From positions 1-25,106 of IMG/VR virus record IMGVR_UViG_3300032278_002138: a stretch of 25,106 nucleotides of DNA. One strand, written 5' to 3'. Made by a program: the position numbers and the translations under genes. The notes under the pieces were generated by a model, which worked only from the letters and a program-made list of their open reading frames with translations, ran no database searches and was not told the origin of the DNA. Positions 16,050 to 23,931 of the stretch are shown piece by piece; the stretch's first letter is position 1, and every line of letters begins with the position of its first letter. Source of the stretch: a virus.

Positions 16050-18094
16050 TGGCCTATCCGATCCAGACACAAGTCTTCTCGGTGTTCATGGGGACCCAGG
16101 AGGGGATTCATTCGGTGGCGCTGCCAGCGATTTACTCCTCCTCAGGCTCACGAAACCTGTGGATCGATAAACTGGGCCGGGCCAAGAAGATCCTGGGGTA
16201 TGCCAAGCAGAATACGTCGGCTGTGACCACGAATACAGGCGGCACAGCGACGTTAGTGCGTGCCCTGCGGGCCTATCGACAGACTGGAGCCTCCTTTACA
16301 CGTCAACTGGTGGGGGTTTTTGAAGACGCCACGGATGAATATGAGTTGTGGTACAGCACCAATGACGGGACAAGCTGGACGTTCATTGCAGATCTTGGCA
16401 GTGGGTCAGTCGGGGCGATCCCGGATTTCGCGCAGGTGGGCAATACCCTATTCTTTGCCAATGGCGTAGTGGCTCCTCGGGCGTGGAACGGCTCTACGTT
16501 GTCCACTGCTGGAGCCACAAGCCGCTCTCCGACCATCACTGCTGCCGTGAATACGGCAACAGGGGTGCTGAATGGCAGTTACTCGTGGAAACTGGTCAGC
16601 CTGGATGGAGCCGAGACGCGCTCAGCTGGCGCAGTGACCTCCAATATTATTCAGACGCAGAACGAGCAGGCGAATCTGTCGTGGACAGCAGATAGCGATA
16701 CTGATATCACGGGGTATGAGTTGTACCGTACCTCGGGCACAGGGGCGACGTTTTACTTTGTCACGTTCATTGATGGACGCACCACGGCAAGCTACACCGA
16801 CAATACGTCAGACCTGGATATCCTGGAAAACCGTCTTTTGCAGGAGCATGGTGATGCCCCAGCCACCGGATCGTATTTCTGTGCGCCCCACATGCAGCGC
16901 CTCTGGTGGGGACGCACCGACACCAATCCCCGCCGTGTCTTTTTCTCCGATCCTGGTCTTGCCGATCAGGTGGGGGCGACGAACTACCTCGATTTTACAG
17001 ATCAAAGCACCCTTGGGGATGTCATCACCGGGATGGTGGGGGACTTCGACAACACGCTGGTCGTGTTCCTGGAACGTTCTGTCTGGACCGTGAGTGGAAC
17101 CGGGCAGATTGTTAGTGATGTCATGGACTGGGACCGCACAAAGTCCAATGCAGTGGTGGGGGCTGTGGCTCAACAGGCTGTTGTCCAGATCCCAGCCGGG
17201 GCTGTGTACACTGATGCGTCAGGCACACAGGTGACGACGCCACGGTCCATGCTGGCCTATTTCACCCCCCTCGGTGATATTCGGCTGTTTGACGGGCAGC
17301 ACGATACCGTAATCTCCACCCCAGTCAAGGAGACCCTCAAAACATTCTTGTATGCCCAGCGTGCCAAGATTCATGCGGTGCATGACATTGAGAATGCGCA
17401 TGTGGTGTGGTTCTGGCCAGGGCCGACCCCTGCGGGGGGACGGGCTGAATGCACACAAGCCGTGGTCTGGAACTATCGCTGGGGGGTGTGGTATGTGTGG
17501 CCTGATATGCCCATGGCGGCTTCCACTATCGTGGATACAGCCAGTGATACGCAGGTGCTCCTGACCGGCGAAGCCCAAACAACCAAAGGGGGCTTTTGTT
17601 ATCAGTTCTTTAGTGGCGACAGCTTTGACGGGGAGACTATCCCGGCACGCTGGATGACGAAAGTGATTTACGGGACCGATAACTCCTGGAATTCGCGGGC
17701 TCCTCAACAGTTAATGGCCTATATTAAACGCTATCGCTGGTTGGATCTGATTGCCGAAGCTGATGCTGATGTCACGCTCACGATTGAATGGATGAGTGGG
17801 AGTGCCTCAGATGATGCCGTCAGTCGAGGGGCAGCCAGTAAGAGCCTGGAACCGATTGGCTTGCAGTTGATTACAGCTGACGGCAATGGGATTGACACGT
17901 CGGACGGCAGTAATATCACGATTCCGTATGAGTCCGTGCAGAAGATTATCAACATGGAAGGCACCAACGGGGATTACATCCAGGATGTGGGCTGTCGGAT
18001 TCGGATCAGTGATGATGCCGCGAATGGGAGTTGGAGTCTGGAAGGCATGACCCTGGGATATCAGCTCTTACCAGGCGCGACACGGAGACTCTAA
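16049..18094 (+). CDS. Tail hub/nozzle protein with Fn3-like insert
   Basis: The product is 681 residues from the ATG at 16049 (AGGGA 7 nt upstream; TAATG overlap). It is predominantly beta. Residues about 160-255 look like a fibronectin type III-like domain (SYSWKLVSLDGAETRSAG, ITGYELYRT, ASYTDN). The core then reads RLWWGRTDTNPRRVFFSDPG and DNTLVVFLERSVWTVSG, the kind of beta-propeller blade sequence found in podovirus tail nozzle or tubular proteins. The C-terminal part is also beta. The protein likely forms the tail tube tip below the connector, to which fibres attach. Alternative: a large baseplate-like tail protein. Confidence 0.75.
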   Translation: MAYPIQTQVFSVFMGTQEGIHSVALPAIYSSSGSRNLWIDKLGRAKKILGYAKQNTSAVTTNTGGTATLVRALRAYRQTGASFTRQLVGVFEDATDEYELWYSTNDGTSWTFIADLGSGSVGAIPDFAQVGNTLFFANGVVAPRAWNGSTLSTAGATSRSPTITAAVNTATGVLNGSYSWKLVSLDGAETRSAGAVTSNIIQTQNEQANLSWTADSDTDITGYELYRTSGTGATFYFVTFIDGRTTASYTDNTSDLDILENRLLQEHGDAPATGSYFCAPHMQRLWWGRTDTNPRRVFFSDPGLADQVGATNYLDFTDQSTLGDVITGMVGDFDNTLVVFLERSVWTVSGTGQIVSDVMDWDRTKSNAVVGAVAQQAVVQIPAGAVYTDASGTQVTTPRSMLAYFTPLGDIRLFDGQHDTVISTPVKETLKTFLYAQRAKIHAVHDIENAHVVWFWPGPTPAGGRAECTQAVVWNYRWGVWYVWPDMPMAASTIVDTASDTQVLLTGEAQTTKGGFCYQFFSGDSFDGETIPARWMTKVIYGTDNSWNSRAPQQLMAYIKRYRWLDLIAEADADVTLTIEWMSGSASDDAVSRGAASKSLEPIGLQLITADGNGIDTSDGSNITIPYESVQKIINMEGTNGDYIQDVGCRIRISDDAANGSWSLEGMTLGYQLLPGATRRL

Positions 18095-18580: not shown

Positions 18581-18594
18581 AGCCCTTGGGGTCT

Positions 18595-19047
18595 ATGCCT
18601 GAGTGCACGATCCGTGCGTTTGAGTCGCGCGACAGTGAATGGTTGCGTGAGTGGTATGAGGCCGATCAGACAGGCATGGCTGCCGTTATGGGCAAGCCCC
18701 TGCCAACAGCAGACGACTGTGTCAAGGCGTTCCAGGTAATTTTTCAGGGCGTACAGGCACAGCAGTCACAGTTTTGGATAGTGGAGTGTGACCAGGAGCC
18801 TTTGGGGTTCTTTGTCTTGACTGACATTCCCCCTACCCAGGATGTCGCAAGCGTGCATGTCTTTATTGATCCAGCACAGCGACGGCACAGTCTACGGGCG
18901 TCACGCGCCTTTGTTGGATTTTGCACAGCGCAAGGATTTCAGCGGTTAGTGGTGGTGACACGAAGTCGGGCAGCCCATGCACTCGCGAAGCATGTGGGCT
19001 TTCGACCTCCAGTCGCTAATATTTTAACGCTTACATTGCCAAACTAA
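18595..19047 (+). CDS. GNAT-family N-acetyltransferase
   Basis: The product is 150 residues from the ATG at 18595; an in-frame TTG at 18586 would coincide with the predicted mRNA start. The fold is suggested by an N-terminal strand/helix (TIRAFESRDSEWLREWYEAD), a central strand pair (FWIVECDQEPLGFFVLTD, residues 60-77), motif A at 87-102 (VHVFIDPAQRRHSLRA) and motif B near 126-137 (AAHALAKHVGFR). The usual glycines of the acyl-CoA pyrophosphate loop (RGxGxG) are replaced by RHSLRA, so cofactor binding may be altered or the enzyme divergent. GNAT genes do occur in the tail region of podovirus-like phages. Substrate unknown: a virion protein, host protein or antibiotic-like small molecule are all possible. 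Confidence 0.75.
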   Translation: MPECTIRAFESRDSEWLREWYEADQTGMAAVMGKPLPTADDCVKAFQVIFQGVQAQQSQFWIVECDQEPLGFFVLTDIPPTQDVASVHVFIDPAQRRHSLRASRAFVGFCTAQGFQRLVVVTRSRAAHALAKHVGFRPPVANILTLTLPN

Positions 19048-19057
19048 AGGACTGCTT

Positions 19058-20149
19058 ATGACTGGCGCTGAAATGGCCTATGCCATGCCCATTCTCATGG
19101 GGGCTATGGGGGCCATGGGTGGGGGTGCGGCTCGGAATCCAGTGGACAGCCCTTTTCTGCTTGAGCCATTTGGCGGGGCTGAAGGAGAGTTCCTCGATCC
19201 ACGTCGGATGCTGACCCAGAACGTCAAAGATGTGGCGTTGCTGGGCAGTCTGCTTGGGGAGCGGGCAGCAGCGCCTGTGACACTTCCTGGGGCTGTTGTG
19301 CAGCCGACACGGTGGTACAGCGGTGGGGGATTGCCGTTTCCCATGGGGAACACAGGCCTGGATCCAGCGCTGTTTCAGCCTGCTGCGCATCAGTATCGCG
19401 CAGGGCTCCAGTTTCCCCAGCCTACATTTCAGGGACCTGACCCAACGGCGACACTGGAGACAGGCATAGAAGGGTTAGTGGATGGCGTAGATTACAGTGT
19501 TATCCCTGACTTCGCTCGGCAGGCCGGACTGCCAACAGACACAGATAACTGGCTGTTTGGGGCTCGACGTGGCGCTGATACTGACGCGATTACAGATCCA
19601 ACGCGGTTCAAAGAGACAACGATCCTTGACCCGGCGACGGGGAAGGTGCGCACCTTGGGACCTTTTACCCGCGAAGGGCTTGATGCCAACGTGCCTGGAT
19701 GGGATCAGGCGTTGGGTGGGGACATGGGTGGGTATGCCCCTCGACGAGCCTCGACAGGTGAGGCGCGTGATTGGACGACGCCTGAGGGCTGGCTCGGTGG
19801 GGCACAGGAAAGTGGGCCACTGCCTGAGGTGGGTGGGGGTGTGCCACGGTTGATGGCCAATCTGGAACTGCTCGGTGTAACAGCTGATCCTACGACTGGA
19901 AATCTAGTGGATCAAGGCCCAGCAGAGATTGGGAATCTGGCCCTGTTTGCAGGCAGGAACAATGTACGTCGGCGGTATCCGGCAGGCCCACAGCCAGGGA
20001 CAGGATTGGACACGCCAGGATGGCAGCAAGCTGATGTGGGGGCTCCCTTGGCGGTGCCGCAGGCAACAGCGCGGCCAGGGACAGGGCAGTGGGGCTTGAA
20101 TGCACGCACATTACCCTTTGGGTCGACCCAAAAGAAGGGACTAGCCTAA
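19058..20149 (+). CDS. Putative ejection/internal virion protein with Gly-rich N-terminus
   Basis: The product is 363 residues. The ATG has AAAGGA 7 nt upstream. Residues about 7-24 (AYAMPILMGAMGAMGGGA) form a hydrophobic Gly/Met/Ala segment that could insert into a membrane. The rest is Gly/Pro/Asp-rich with little predicted order. The gene opens a run of proteins of similar composition after the tail genes, where P22-like phages encode the proteins ejected with DNA (gp7, gp20, gp16). Homology to those is not visible, so the role is inferred from position, composition and the membrane-like segment. Confidence 0.6.
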   Translation: MTGAEMAYAMPILMGAMGAMGGGAARNPVDSPFLLEPFGGAEGEFLDPRRMLTQNVKDVALLGSLLGERAAAPVTLPGAVVQPTRWYSGGGLPFPMGNTGLDPALFQPAAHQYRAGLQFPQPTFQGPDPTATLETGIEGLVDGVDYSVIPDFARQAGLPTDTDNWLFGARRGADTDAITDPTRFKETTILDPATGKVRTLGPFTREGLDANVPGWDQALGGDMGGYAPRRASTGEARDWTTPEGWLGGAQESGPLPEVGGGVPRLMANLELLGVTADPTTGNLVDQGPAEIGNLALFAGRNNVRRRYPAGPQPGTGLDTPGWQQADVGAPLAVPQATARPGTGQWGLNARTLPFGSTQKKGLA

Positions 20150-21987
20150 TGGCGCGACGTGTACCTGGGATGGGAGGCGCGGGACCAACAGGGTTTGAGG
20201 ACTATCCGGACTGGGAAGGCTATGCGGATGCGTGGCCTGGGACTGCAGCCACAGATCCTACCGGGATCCCTCCAGCCATTTCGTCTGACTGGACAACGCA
20301 TTTTCGTCCCGGTGATATCCCTGGGGCCTACGACCAGTATCAGGACTGGTCACAGGGGGAGGGACAGGACCCGCTCCCGCTCGACCGGTTCAACGACTTA
20401 CAGTATCAGCAGGGCGTTGGTCCGATTCCTGACGCGCCTTCCAGTGACCCGGCAGCTCTTGCGAGCCAAGGCTATGGGCTGCAGTTTGATCCGCAGTCCA
20501 CCGCAAATACCGGCTGGAATCTGAACTACGACATTCTCAATCCGCAGGGGCAGCGGACGGGGTTTGACCTGTCCTCGACGGGTCCCTATGAGCACTTCCC
20601 GTGGGTGCCAGGTGGGGCAGCCTACACGTCGCCCAACCAACAGGGCGTAGCTGACAACCAAGTGATAATGGAGCGAGCCGACCATTCCGTTGCATCTCTA
20701 AACGATCAGCGCGAATGGTGTGTGTATACCGGCGGGACCTGGAATGGGGTGTCGTGCGATTCCAAGACTGCCCCAGATGCTGGCGCGTTCCCCGATAAGG
20801 AGATTGAGAGTACCCGTGGGGATGATGGTGATGCGATCCAGACCGCCACAGACTTGCCAGATCCCTATGCAGGGGACTTGCGCGATGATCCCTCCATCAC
20901 AGATTACCCCTTTGCTGTCCCAGAACAGCAACTGATCGGGATGACACAGGTGGGAGATGATCCCATTTCTGAGTTGATCAATGCCAGTCTGGCCTCCATG
21001 GCCTCCACAGGCGGGCTTGCTGCCACGCCCTATACAGGGCAAACGCAAGGGGCGCTGTCCGACATCATGGCCCATGGGGGTCAGGGAGCCGAGATTCCAG
21101 GGCAGAGTGGGTGGGAGGCGCAGAATCAATTCTCCCACCTGATGCAGCAGCAAGGACGTGGGGCCGAGCAGGAGTCTGCGTTGGGGCAGGACGTGCAGGC
21201 TACCTTACAAGACCTGCTGGCCAGTGGGGGACAACTGCCTGCTGATGCCCAACGACGGGCGTTGGAGATGGAGACGTTGCGCAGTCCTATTGACGCCTTC
21301 CGGAGTGCCCAACTAGCACAAGGACAGGCTGAACTGGCCCGTCGAGGCCTGTTGGGGCAAGGACCTGAACTCGATTTCATGTCCCGACTGGAAAGTCGCA
21401 TTGCGCCCCAGTATGCCCAGGCTGGTCGTGACCTGGCCCTGGCAGAGGCCCAGCGGGCAGATCAGCGCTTTACGACTGCCTTGGCCACAGCCCAGCAAAT
21501 GGGACAGGGACAGGCCCAACGACGCGAAGCGCAGTATCAGAACGCCTTGAATCAGGCAGCAGCCCAGGGGGATACAGCAGCCCTCCGACGGGAAGATCGC
21601 TTGGCTAACACACTGCAGTTGGCGACAGGCATGTCTGAGGCGCAGAGTCGTAATCTCTTGGCGACCGCACAGACCTGGAATGATCGGCAGCAGATGTTGT
21701 CTGATGTGGTGCTCCAGAGTATTGATCGGGACCAGACGTGGAATCGGTTCCTGGCTGAGTTTGGGCTTGATCGAGCCCAGACACTGGACCTGATATCACA
21801 GGGACGTATCAATTCGCTCCTGCCACTTTTGCAGCAGTTCATGGATCAGATTGAGATCGCAGCTACTGGTTTCGTGCCGTATTACCCGCAGGAAGAAGGA
21901 CGGTATGGGCGGCAGGTTGGGGAGACGACCGCGACACGCCAAGACGCCGCAGACTTTTATACAGACCCGCGAATCGGGAATCAATAG
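20149..21987 (+). CDS. Putative ejection/virion protein with Cys-loop motif
   Basis: The product is 612 residues from the ATG at 20149 (TAATG overlap). Residues 1-180 are Gly/Pro/Asp/Tyr-rich and probably flexible. Residues 191-203 form the motif C-VYT-GG-T-W-N-G-VS-C, a disulfide or metal-capable loop repeated in the 102-residue protein downstream. Residues about 330-560 are long Ala/Gln/Arg/Leu helices (AELARRGLLGQGPELDFM, QAQRREAQYQNALNQAAA), likely coiled coil. The ending is Tyr-rich (FVPYYPQEEGRYGR). The composition suits a large internal or ejection protein. It could also be a tail needle-like or fibre component. Confidence 0.65.
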   Translation: MARRVPGMGGAGPTGFEDYPDWEGYADAWPGTAATDPTGIPPAISSDWTTHFRPGDIPGAYDQYQDWSQGEGQDPLPLDRFNDLQYQQGVGPIPDAPSSDPAALASQGYGLQFDPQSTANTGWNLNYDILNPQGQRTGFDLSSTGPYEHFPWVPGGAAYTSPNQQGVADNQVIMERADHSVASLNDQREWCVYTGGTWNGVSCDSKTAPDAGAFPDKEIESTRGDDGDAIQTATDLPDPYAGDLRDDPSITDYPFAVPEQQLIGMTQVGDDPISELINASLASMASTGGLAATPYTGQTQGALSDIMAHGGQGAEIPGQSGWEAQNQFSHLMQQQGRGAEQESALGQDVQATLQDLLASGGQLPADAQRRALEMETLRSPIDAFRSAQLAQGQAELARRGLLGQGPELDFMSRLESRIAPQYAQAGRDLALAEAQRADQRFTTALATAQQMGQGQAQRREAQYQNALNQAAAQGDTAALRREDRLANTLQLATGMSEAQSRNLLATAQTWNDRQQMLSDVVLQSIDRDQTWNRFLAEFGLDRAQTLDLISQGRINSLLPLLQQFMDQIEIAATGFVPYYPQEEGRYGRQVGETTATRQDAADFYTDPRIGNQ

Positions 21988-21998
21988 GACCATATATT

Positions 21999-22355
21999 AT
22001 GCCCACTGAAACTGATCCTGTGACTGGGAAAACCATACGCCGTCCCTATCCAGGGGAGCCAGGATTTGGTGCAGGAGCGCCAGTGTCTGGACCCCCACAG
22101 CCCACAGGGAGACCTGCCCCTCCAGCTGGGCCTCCACGTCGGCAGCAGGGAGGACGCCCCCCAGAGCGCCAGATTATGCGGGGGCCTGGGGTGCCTGCGC
22201 AGGATGCCCGTGTCGGGCCTGAACTGGGGGGCGATCCAGCAGGGCTTGGGCACTATGGGGCCAGTGGGGCGGTACCTGGGGTGGCACCTGCAGGGGCTGT
22301 CACTAGTGCCAGTGTCTTGCCGCATGAACGTCGGCGTCGAGGCGTGTTCAGCTAA
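21999..22355 (+). CDS. Pro/Gly-rich hypothetical protein
   Basis: The product is 118 residues and low-complexity: Pro, Gly, Arg and Ala make up most of it (PPQPTGRPAPPAGPPRRQQG), so it is probably disordered. The ATG has only a weak AGGA about 10 nt away. The TAA overlaps the next ATG. Its composition would suit a linker or nucleic-acid-contacting virion protein, but there is no motif. Confidence is moderate, from operon continuity and same-strand coupling rather than from conserved features. Confidence 0.5.
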   Translation: MPTETDPVTGKTIRRPYPGEPGFGAGAPVSGPPQPTGRPAPPAGPPRRQQGGRPPERQIMRGPGVPAQDARVGPELGGDPAGLGHYGASGAVPGVAPAGAVTSASVLPHERRRRGVFS

Positions 22356-22663
22356 TGGCTGGGAAACTGCCTGTGCGTCGACGGCGACAGGAGCCTGAGG
22401 ACAATGGCTTCAACTGGACAGGAGCCCTGACAGGGGGCTTGGCTGGGGCAGGGAGTGGGTATCTGATGTCCCAGTTGATGGGGGCTGAGCAGGAGGACCC
22501 GTTGGAGGAAGGGGTGCTTGGTGACTGGGGGGCTGCACAGTGCCAGATGAGTGGGGGTCACTGGACAGGTGAGCAGTGCATCGATCTCAGCACTGGACAG
22601 CCGATCTATCCACAAACGCTTGACCTTGGGAGCCTCATGAGGCGCAGGCAGGAGAGACCCTAA
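22355..22663 (+). CDS. Small Gly-zipper protein with Cys-loop motif
   Basis: The product is 102 residues. After a basic N-terminus (KLPVRRRRQEP), residues about 21-43 (WTGALTGGLAGAGSGYLMSQ) form a Gly-zipper-like hydrophobic segment suited to oligomeric membrane insertion. Residues 63-75 carry C-QMS-GG-H-W-T-G-EQ-C, with the same spacing as the loop in the 612-residue protein. A basic end (LMRRRQERP) follows. Both gene ends overlap neighbours (TAATG). A membrane-active ejection protein or small virion pore is plausible. Holin activity is an alternative, as the size and single segment also fit. Confidence 0.6.
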   Translation: MAGKLPVRRRRQEPEDNGFNWTGALTGGLAGAGSGYLMSQLMGAEQEDPLEEGVLGDWGAAQCQMSGGHWTGEQCIDLSTGQPIYPQTLDLGSLMRRRQERP

Positions 22664-23931
22664 TGGCTAGACTGAAACGCCGCACGCGCCGTCCGCCCTA
22701 CCAGGGTGCGGCTCAGCCAGGCATGCTGGAGCAGATCATGGCAGGGCTGAAGCCTGCGATGGGCATGATGCCCATGCTGATGATGCAGGGCATGCAGCGG
22801 AAACAGGCACGGGCTGACACGCTAGCAGACAGGGCACAGGCAGAGCGAGATCGTATTGCGGCTGAACTGCGGCAGGAGGGTCGTAACATAAGTGCTGCAG
22901 AGCGTGCCGCTACGCAGGAAGGTATGGTGTACCGTCGGGGACAGGAGCAGGAGGCACGGAAGGCGGCTAGTGCCTTGACGCCAACACAGTCACCCGACGC
23001 ACAAGCGCTGGCATTGGAACGTATTCAGCGGCAGTTTGATGTGTCTCCTGATGTCCTGGGCTCAGCTGAAAATTGGCTAACAACACCACCAGAACGTGTC
23101 GAGGCTGCCGCACAGATTCCTGGCACAATGGATGCACCCACGCTAGCGATGGGCGATATAGCGGTCCAAGAAGCTATGGGGCGTGTGCATATGGACCAGC
23201 CACTGACTGAGCAGATAGGCCCACCGACGAGGGAAGGGATGTTGGCACCCCTAACTGAAACTATTGCAGGGGAGCGGGTACGGGAAGCTACACAGGTGGC
23301 ACAGGAGGCAGCCATCCGGGAGCTTGAGCAGCAGATTGGCACAGCAGGAGCCGAGACAGGCGCACGAGCAGCGGCCAACTTCCCGTATCAAGTAGAGCTA
23401 CAGTCTCAGGCTGGCAGAAGTGCGGCGTGGCATCAGGCCATGGCTCAGCAGGCTGATCCGGGGGTAGGTATTCCTGTCCGGGTAGGCGGAAGTCAGGGGA
23501 ATGCGGTCTCCGCGCCCTATCTTGTTGCCAGTGCTGATAGTGGTGAAATTTGGGAAGTGCCTAAGAACTTTGAGGGGATGTGGCACACTGTAGGGGCTGT
23601 GAATGTGCCAGGGGGTAAGTATCACGGGATTCCCTATGTATCGTACAAACCTATTCCACAGGCTGTGACAGATGAGCAGCTAGCGGTAACAGAAGCGACG
23701 CAGGAGGCAACTGGAGCCACGGGAATAGAAGTAAAGTCGACAGGCGACACTGCCCTCCCAATGGGGCGAGCAGAGCTAGGGGATCTGGAGGCCAGGTTTG
23801 CGCTGCCAGTCCCTGGTGTGGGTGACATGGACACCTTCTTGGGGCTAGAAGAACTTCGGAACATGCGTAGCTGGTTCCAACCGATTACCCGTAATGTGCT
23901 TCCAGGGCATCGCCGTTTCCGTCAACCATAG
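22663..23931 (+). CDS. Putative ejection/virion protein with Met-rich segment
   Basis: The product is 422 residues. The basic start (ARLKRRTRRPPY) is followed by a Met/Gly/Ala hydrophobic stretch at about residues 21-45 (MLEQIMAGLKPAMGMMPMLM), then charged helices (residues 48-105, Ala/Glu/Arg/Gln rich) and a mixed C-terminal half with some strands (PYLVASADSGEIWEVPKNF). The family is not recognised. The basic tail plus hydrophobic segment plus coiled coil is repeated in neighbouring proteins, so a shared role in DNA ejection is inferred. The ATG overlaps the previous stop. Confidence 0.6.
   Translation: MARLKRRTRRPPYQGAAQPGMLEQIMAGLKPAMGMMPMLMMQGMQRKQARADTLADRAQAERDRIAAELRQEGRNISAAERAATQEGMVYRRGQEQEARKAASALTPTQSPDAQALALERIQRQFDVSPDVLGSAENWLTTPPERVEAAAQIPGTMDAPTLAMGDIAVQEAMGRVHMDQPLTEQIGPPTREGMLAPLTETIAGERVREATQVAQEAAIRELEQQIGTAGAETGARAAANFPYQVELQSQAGRSAAWHQAMAQQADPGVGIPVRVGGSQGNAVSAPYLVASADSGEIWEVPKNFEGMWHTVGAVNVPGGKYHGIPYVSYKPIPQAVTDEQLAVTEATQEATGATGIEVKSTGDTALPMGRAELGDLEARFALPVPGVGDMDTFLGLEELRNMRSWFQPITRNVLPGHRRFRQP

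Follow-up and report, generated by a model that had tools for sequence, protein, structure and literature searches.

Ejection (internal virion) proteins of podoviruses are known from P22, T7 and phage PhiM1, as described in PMC8954989 and PMC11440229, and the internal proteins are reported to form a trans-periplasmic channel (PMC11440229, PMC8402733). A word search of the review PMC8954989 revealed no occurrence of cysteine or disulfide. Disulfides are described for Agrobacterium phage Milano, in which the tail is disulfide-crosslinked and the virion is dependent on disulfides (PMC10811340).

The locus investigated here is in a 25,106-base IMG/VR virus record, the whole of which was analysed and is called the window. 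Like the podovirus ejection proteins, the proteins of interest are encoded in a module located after the portal, capsid and tail genes, and are helical and poorly conserved with long cysteine-free neighbours; they differ in that they match no PHROGs ejection family and are known here from sequence only. Two of them carry a small loop bounded by two cysteines, for which stabilisation by a disulfide is proposed, as found for the virion proteins of phage Milano, although the Milano crosslinks join components of a contractile tail whereas the window has a small internal loop. The same loop is present in the central stretch of tape-measure proteins (phrog_13338, phrog_2335 and others; L017, L068, L106) that have exactly two cysteines, although these proteins belong to long-tailed phages and are unrelated to those of the window.

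Gene organization of the window

The gene order in the window is terminase-like (phrog_2), portal (PF16510, phrog_156), major head protein (phrog_14242), tail module and loop module, the latter encoding proteins of 363, 612, 118, 102, 422 and 388 aa in that order after the tail-module genes. The two loop-bearing proteins, their features and the 118-, 422- and 680-aa proteins described here are all encoded on the plus strand. The 612-aa ejection-type protein (20149..21987) is comprised of an N-terminal region, a variable loop-bearing linker and a conserved helical C-terminal half in which AlphaFold2 placed helices at residues 407-493 and 497-537. The open reading frame begins with the ATG at 20149, the position equivalent to the ATG at which the homologues in L002-L004 begin; a longer GTG-started frame from 20089 is also listed. 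The 102-aa protein (22355..22663) is encoded two genes 3' of the 612-aa gene. The two carriers are separated by a Pro-rich, cysteine-free protein of 118 aa (21999..22355) that is also found in relatives, and downstream in the loop module is a cysteine-free protein of 422 aa (22663..23931). The label 'ejection-type' is reasonable given the gene order and the predicted helical and disordered make-up. A GNAT acetyltransferase-like gene (PF00583, E=1.6e-4) is located at 18586-19047 within the tail/ejection-type module, with homologues in L002-L004, L281 and L305.

Searches with PHROGs profiles revealed no match for the 612-, 118-, 102-, 363-, 422- or 388-aa proteins, and no sequence relatives of the 102-aa protein were found in IMG/VR. 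When named phages were searched with tblastn no match was obtained for the 612-aa protein or the portal; the 680-aa tail-module protein (16052..18094), assigned to the tail from its position only, gave one weak partial match to named phages.

The two loops

It was originally predicted that the 612- and 102-aa proteins share a cysteine loop with identical spacing and little DNA identity. The loops were indeed found as CVYTGGTWNGVSC at residues 191-203 of the 612-aa protein (20719..20757) and CQMSGGHWTGEQC at residues 63-75 of the 102-aa protein (22541..22579), with identical spacing and with 21 of 39 bases identical, much of those 21 imposed by shared codons. A six-frame search of the window with the pattern returned these two loops only. 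The 102-aa protein and the 612-aa protein, taken from its ATG, contain two cysteines each, both within the loop. Loops 1 and 2 share 16% identity over 38 residues, a value tied for the lowest among 81 comparisons with loop 1, which indicates that neither is a recent copy of the other; a model in which one loop had recently been duplicated into the second gene was rejected for the same reason. The loops may have several separate origins and not constitute one family. Across the six positional equivalents compared for the small protein, the only invariant residues are Met1, one Gly and both cysteines.

Distribution of the loop

In order to collect the phage family independently of the motif, the loop-free 680-aa tail-module protein was used as bait, yielding 80-81 records with 799 kb of DNA that was searched on both strands. 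The relaxed pattern C-x3-GG-x-[WFY]-x(3-6)-C occurred 21 times and the reversed form 0 times. All 21 matches were located either in the linker of the 612-aa homologue or in the small protein encoded two genes 3' of it. The 11 distinct loops are all within ~7.5% of the family DNA, an arrangement with a rough probability of 4e-13, which is an estimate given that the small-gene share was itself estimated and that related phages are not fully independent. A DNA pattern search of IMG/VR with C-x3-GGTW-[DN]G-x2-C returned 85 stretches compared to 2 for the reversed pattern, and nearly all of the forward matches fall in long open frames; the 85 stretches are not 85 independent events, several protein families being represented many times. 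With a 14-base version of the pattern, the in-frame matches differed between forward and reversed forms among the matches listed. Loose dereplication of all phage carriers left 37 proteins, 17 of which contain exactly two cysteines.

The loop was variably distributed within the family. In the nearest relatives (L002-L004) the big protein is without cysteine and the small protein contains CAQFGGELQLDGRC, while in L281 and L254 only the big protein carries the loop. L042/L337 have two loops in the big protein and one in the small, and the loop is present in the small protein of L342 and L399. Several looser tandem loops are found in the big protein of L363, L365 and L399, with four cysteine pairs each in L363 and L365 and more in L399. 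Copy number ranges from none to several. Counted by family genotype, the loop is in both genes in three, in the big gene only in three, in the small gene only in three and in neither in about seven, with no detectable co-occurrence between the two genes (Fisher p=0.61, small sample).

Among the non-redundant 612-aa homologues, 13 of 22 are cysteine-free and the remainder have even cysteine counts, nearly always as closely spaced pairs, with the window represented by the ATG-started protein and with the open frame of L399 including sequence 5' of the likely start. The large downstream proteins of the module contain 9 cysteines in 16,533 residues. The linker of loop-free relatives often consists of Gly, PT, PN, GT or GN repeats, and since about half of the 612-aa homologues use such plain low-complexity linkers instead, the loop is dispensable in some lineages. 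The linker site (about 20614-20919 of the window) is fast-changing, and the simple repeats PT, PN, GT, GN, poly-Gly and poly-Pro vary by relative.

Carriers outside the family

The loop is also carried by a nozzle-like family of 552-557 aa with matches to phrog_5107/phrog_3287, and the loop proteins of L030 and L255 gave weak Gly-zipper matches. Some loop proteins are followed by cysteine-free frames of 839, 1041 and 2827 aa, and the 2,827-residue frame, without any cysteine, is directly 3' of a two-loop protein (L265:1-8481, minus strand). L245, L247, L250, L279 and L282 encode single-loop proteins in which the loop comes after a VLANIKRSDEYACAQSGGTWDGSSC-type sequence; L245, the one tested among these, has four DUF4214 repeats. 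A collection of bacterial and archaeal species contained 86 loop stretches, and in 47 of 80 carrier frames some upstream Met is followed by a hydrophobic stretch, which is a crude sign of export. In the Solobacterium records L425, L426, L440, L452, L473 and L480, tandem 22-residue repeats like PTPAEQCANNGGTWDGSTCVYP have the same loop core.

No family covering the loop element was found in Pfam or PHROGs, the consensus loop peptide gave only chance-level matches to named phages (E 4-7), and no paper was found for the peptide strings GGTWDG, GGTWNG or GGTWSG in a partial literature collection. The Trp-Asp-Gly-x-x-Cys turn is shared with the Notch LNR and trefoil domains (PF00066, PF00088), which differ in being multi-disulfide domains. 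The Notch profile scored above cutoff only for a multi-copy query modelled on the bacterial tandem repeat, whereas single loops gave E>=0.03 only.

Predicted fold and disulfide

AlphaFold2 applied to an alignment of 82 loops gave a core pLDDT of 84-85 for a predicted micro-domain of helix, GG turn and short strands, which corresponds to residues 52-85 of the 102-aa protein (22508..22609). In the AlphaFold2 model of the 612-aa protein, computed on alignment A4, residues 184-205 (20698..20763) form an ordered island with pLDDT of about 71-80 in a predicted disordered linker, between flanking stretches below 50. Low-confidence linker is found at residues 156-182 (20614..20694) before the loop and 206-257 (20764..20919) after it. 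The island comprises a helix at residues 184-193 and two short strands in the same element order as the 82-loop model, although the full-length model is poor overall (pTM 0.26), both models derive from modest alignments, and, with some input sequences in common, the two are only partly independent. For the 612-aa and the 102-aa protein alike, the predicted micro-domain is a helix plus beta-hairpin.

When the loop model was submitted to Foldseek nothing was returned at E<=0.001, and the 612-aa model returned one viral protein of 630 aa with 29% identity and no named relative. No solved structure with the loop was found, nor a solved lectin matching the loop profile. Weak matches of one member to kringle-type structures were judged to be chance.

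That the two proteins would share a disulfide loop, as had been proposed, is very probable from the sequences, since the sole cysteines of both proteins are in the loop and family cysteines are even in number and nearly always in close pairs. The near absence of cysteine outside close pairs in the 612-aa family implies that the disulfide is intramolecular, and very probably a single such bond closes the loop. A lipobox was rejected based on the distance of the cysteines from the N-terminus, a CxxC redox site based on the spacing, and a zinc site based on the presence of only two cysteines.

Discussion

The pattern has just seven fixed positions among 13 residues, consistent with a short functionless sequence that arises by convergence or chance. 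The original prediction was to be abandoned if the pattern proved random in phage proteins without positional preference; instead, the preference is strong. The excess of forward over reversed matches in IMG/VR and in the family DNA, together with the total positional restriction in the latter, makes coincidence extremely improbable. Since related phages place the loop only in these two genes, the results suggest that it is a real element repeatedly reused in phage cell-entry machinery. The restriction to two gene positions is also what would be expected if the shared loop mediated binding between the big and the small protein, or of both to a common partner, as had been proposed for a common complex or ligand. 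However, the two genes gain and lose the loop with no detectable co-occurrence, single carriers are common, the two loops of the window have low similarity, and many unrelated proteins carry the loop as well. On these data a common complex or ligand is not favoured and is considered very unlikely.

Another explanation is a purely structural role, in which the loop would serve as a spacer, its disulfide knot making the linker bulkier or stiffer, without a partner and interchangeable with Gly, PT and PN repeats. This explanation is in agreement with the Gly-rich, PTPTP, NPNPN, GTGTG or GNGNG repeats of relatives at the same linker position and with the range from none to several tandem loop copies, but a spacer has no need of the Trp and GG that are kept in most loops, a retention that is only partly independent evidence since the search pattern that yielded most loops required both. 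The loop is also the main conserved feature of the small protein and not only part of a linker, and a spacer role is judged unlikely. The suggestion of a lectin-like loop was not borne out. On this reading the loop would be an adhesive lectin-like tag on the virion surface, with the two proteins as two copies of a sticker for envelope or environmental glycans. The weak neighbour found most often for the loops is the Pfam MVL repeat (PF12151), a mannan-binding lectin repeat: the local stretch around C-x3-GG-x-W scores at E<=0.1 in 8 of the 82 loops, the best at 1.9e-4. One carrier family has DUF4214 repeats, the module of the L275 carrier includes a laminin-G protein, and many bacterial proteins with the loop, often in tandem copies, are probably exported. 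Yet the window had no PF12151 match at E<=10, the Pfam scan of both proteins listed no MVL (25-bit cutoff), and 10 of 14 control genomes gave sub-cutoff MVL matches in the same loose search. The loop profile matches no solved lectin, and the loop is carried by tape-measure proteins, which lie inside the phage tail. A role as a glycan-binding tag is distinctly unlikely.

The reading considered reasonably probable, based on sequence patterns and structure prediction, is that the loop forms a disulfide-closed contact or anchoring micro-domain, carried by virion or ejected proteins and oxidised outside the cytoplasm. The element would be a two-cysteine micro-domain of roughly 24-35 residues, with a helix ending near the first cysteine, a GG turn, a short Trp strand, an [N/D]G-type turn and a strand from the second cysteine, and in phage virion proteins it would sit as a folded bead within flexible linkers of low complexity. 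The carrier proteins are probably in the head or tail and would enter the host envelope at infection. The cysteine pair would be made in the reduced state in the cytoplasm and would oxidise only outside it, either in the free virion or in the host periplasm. Oxidation may then lock the bead into a compact contact site, helping the protein to keep its place in the entry apparatus or to stick to an envelope component. It is also conceivable, if on balance doubtful, that this is a mobile disulfide micro-domain, not yet described, that unrelated phages have repeatedly inserted into linkers of their ejection and tape-measure proteins, which leave the virion; it would be unfolded and slim during passage through the portal or tail and become an oxidation-locked contact bead in the periplasm.

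Phage proteins that enter the envelope show little conservation and are difficult to recognise, and a short, countable loop signature would help to find them in uncultured phages. Within one family the signature is confined to genes of this kind, and tape-measure proteins carry it too. A further question raised is whether ejected proteins fold using the oxidising periplasm.
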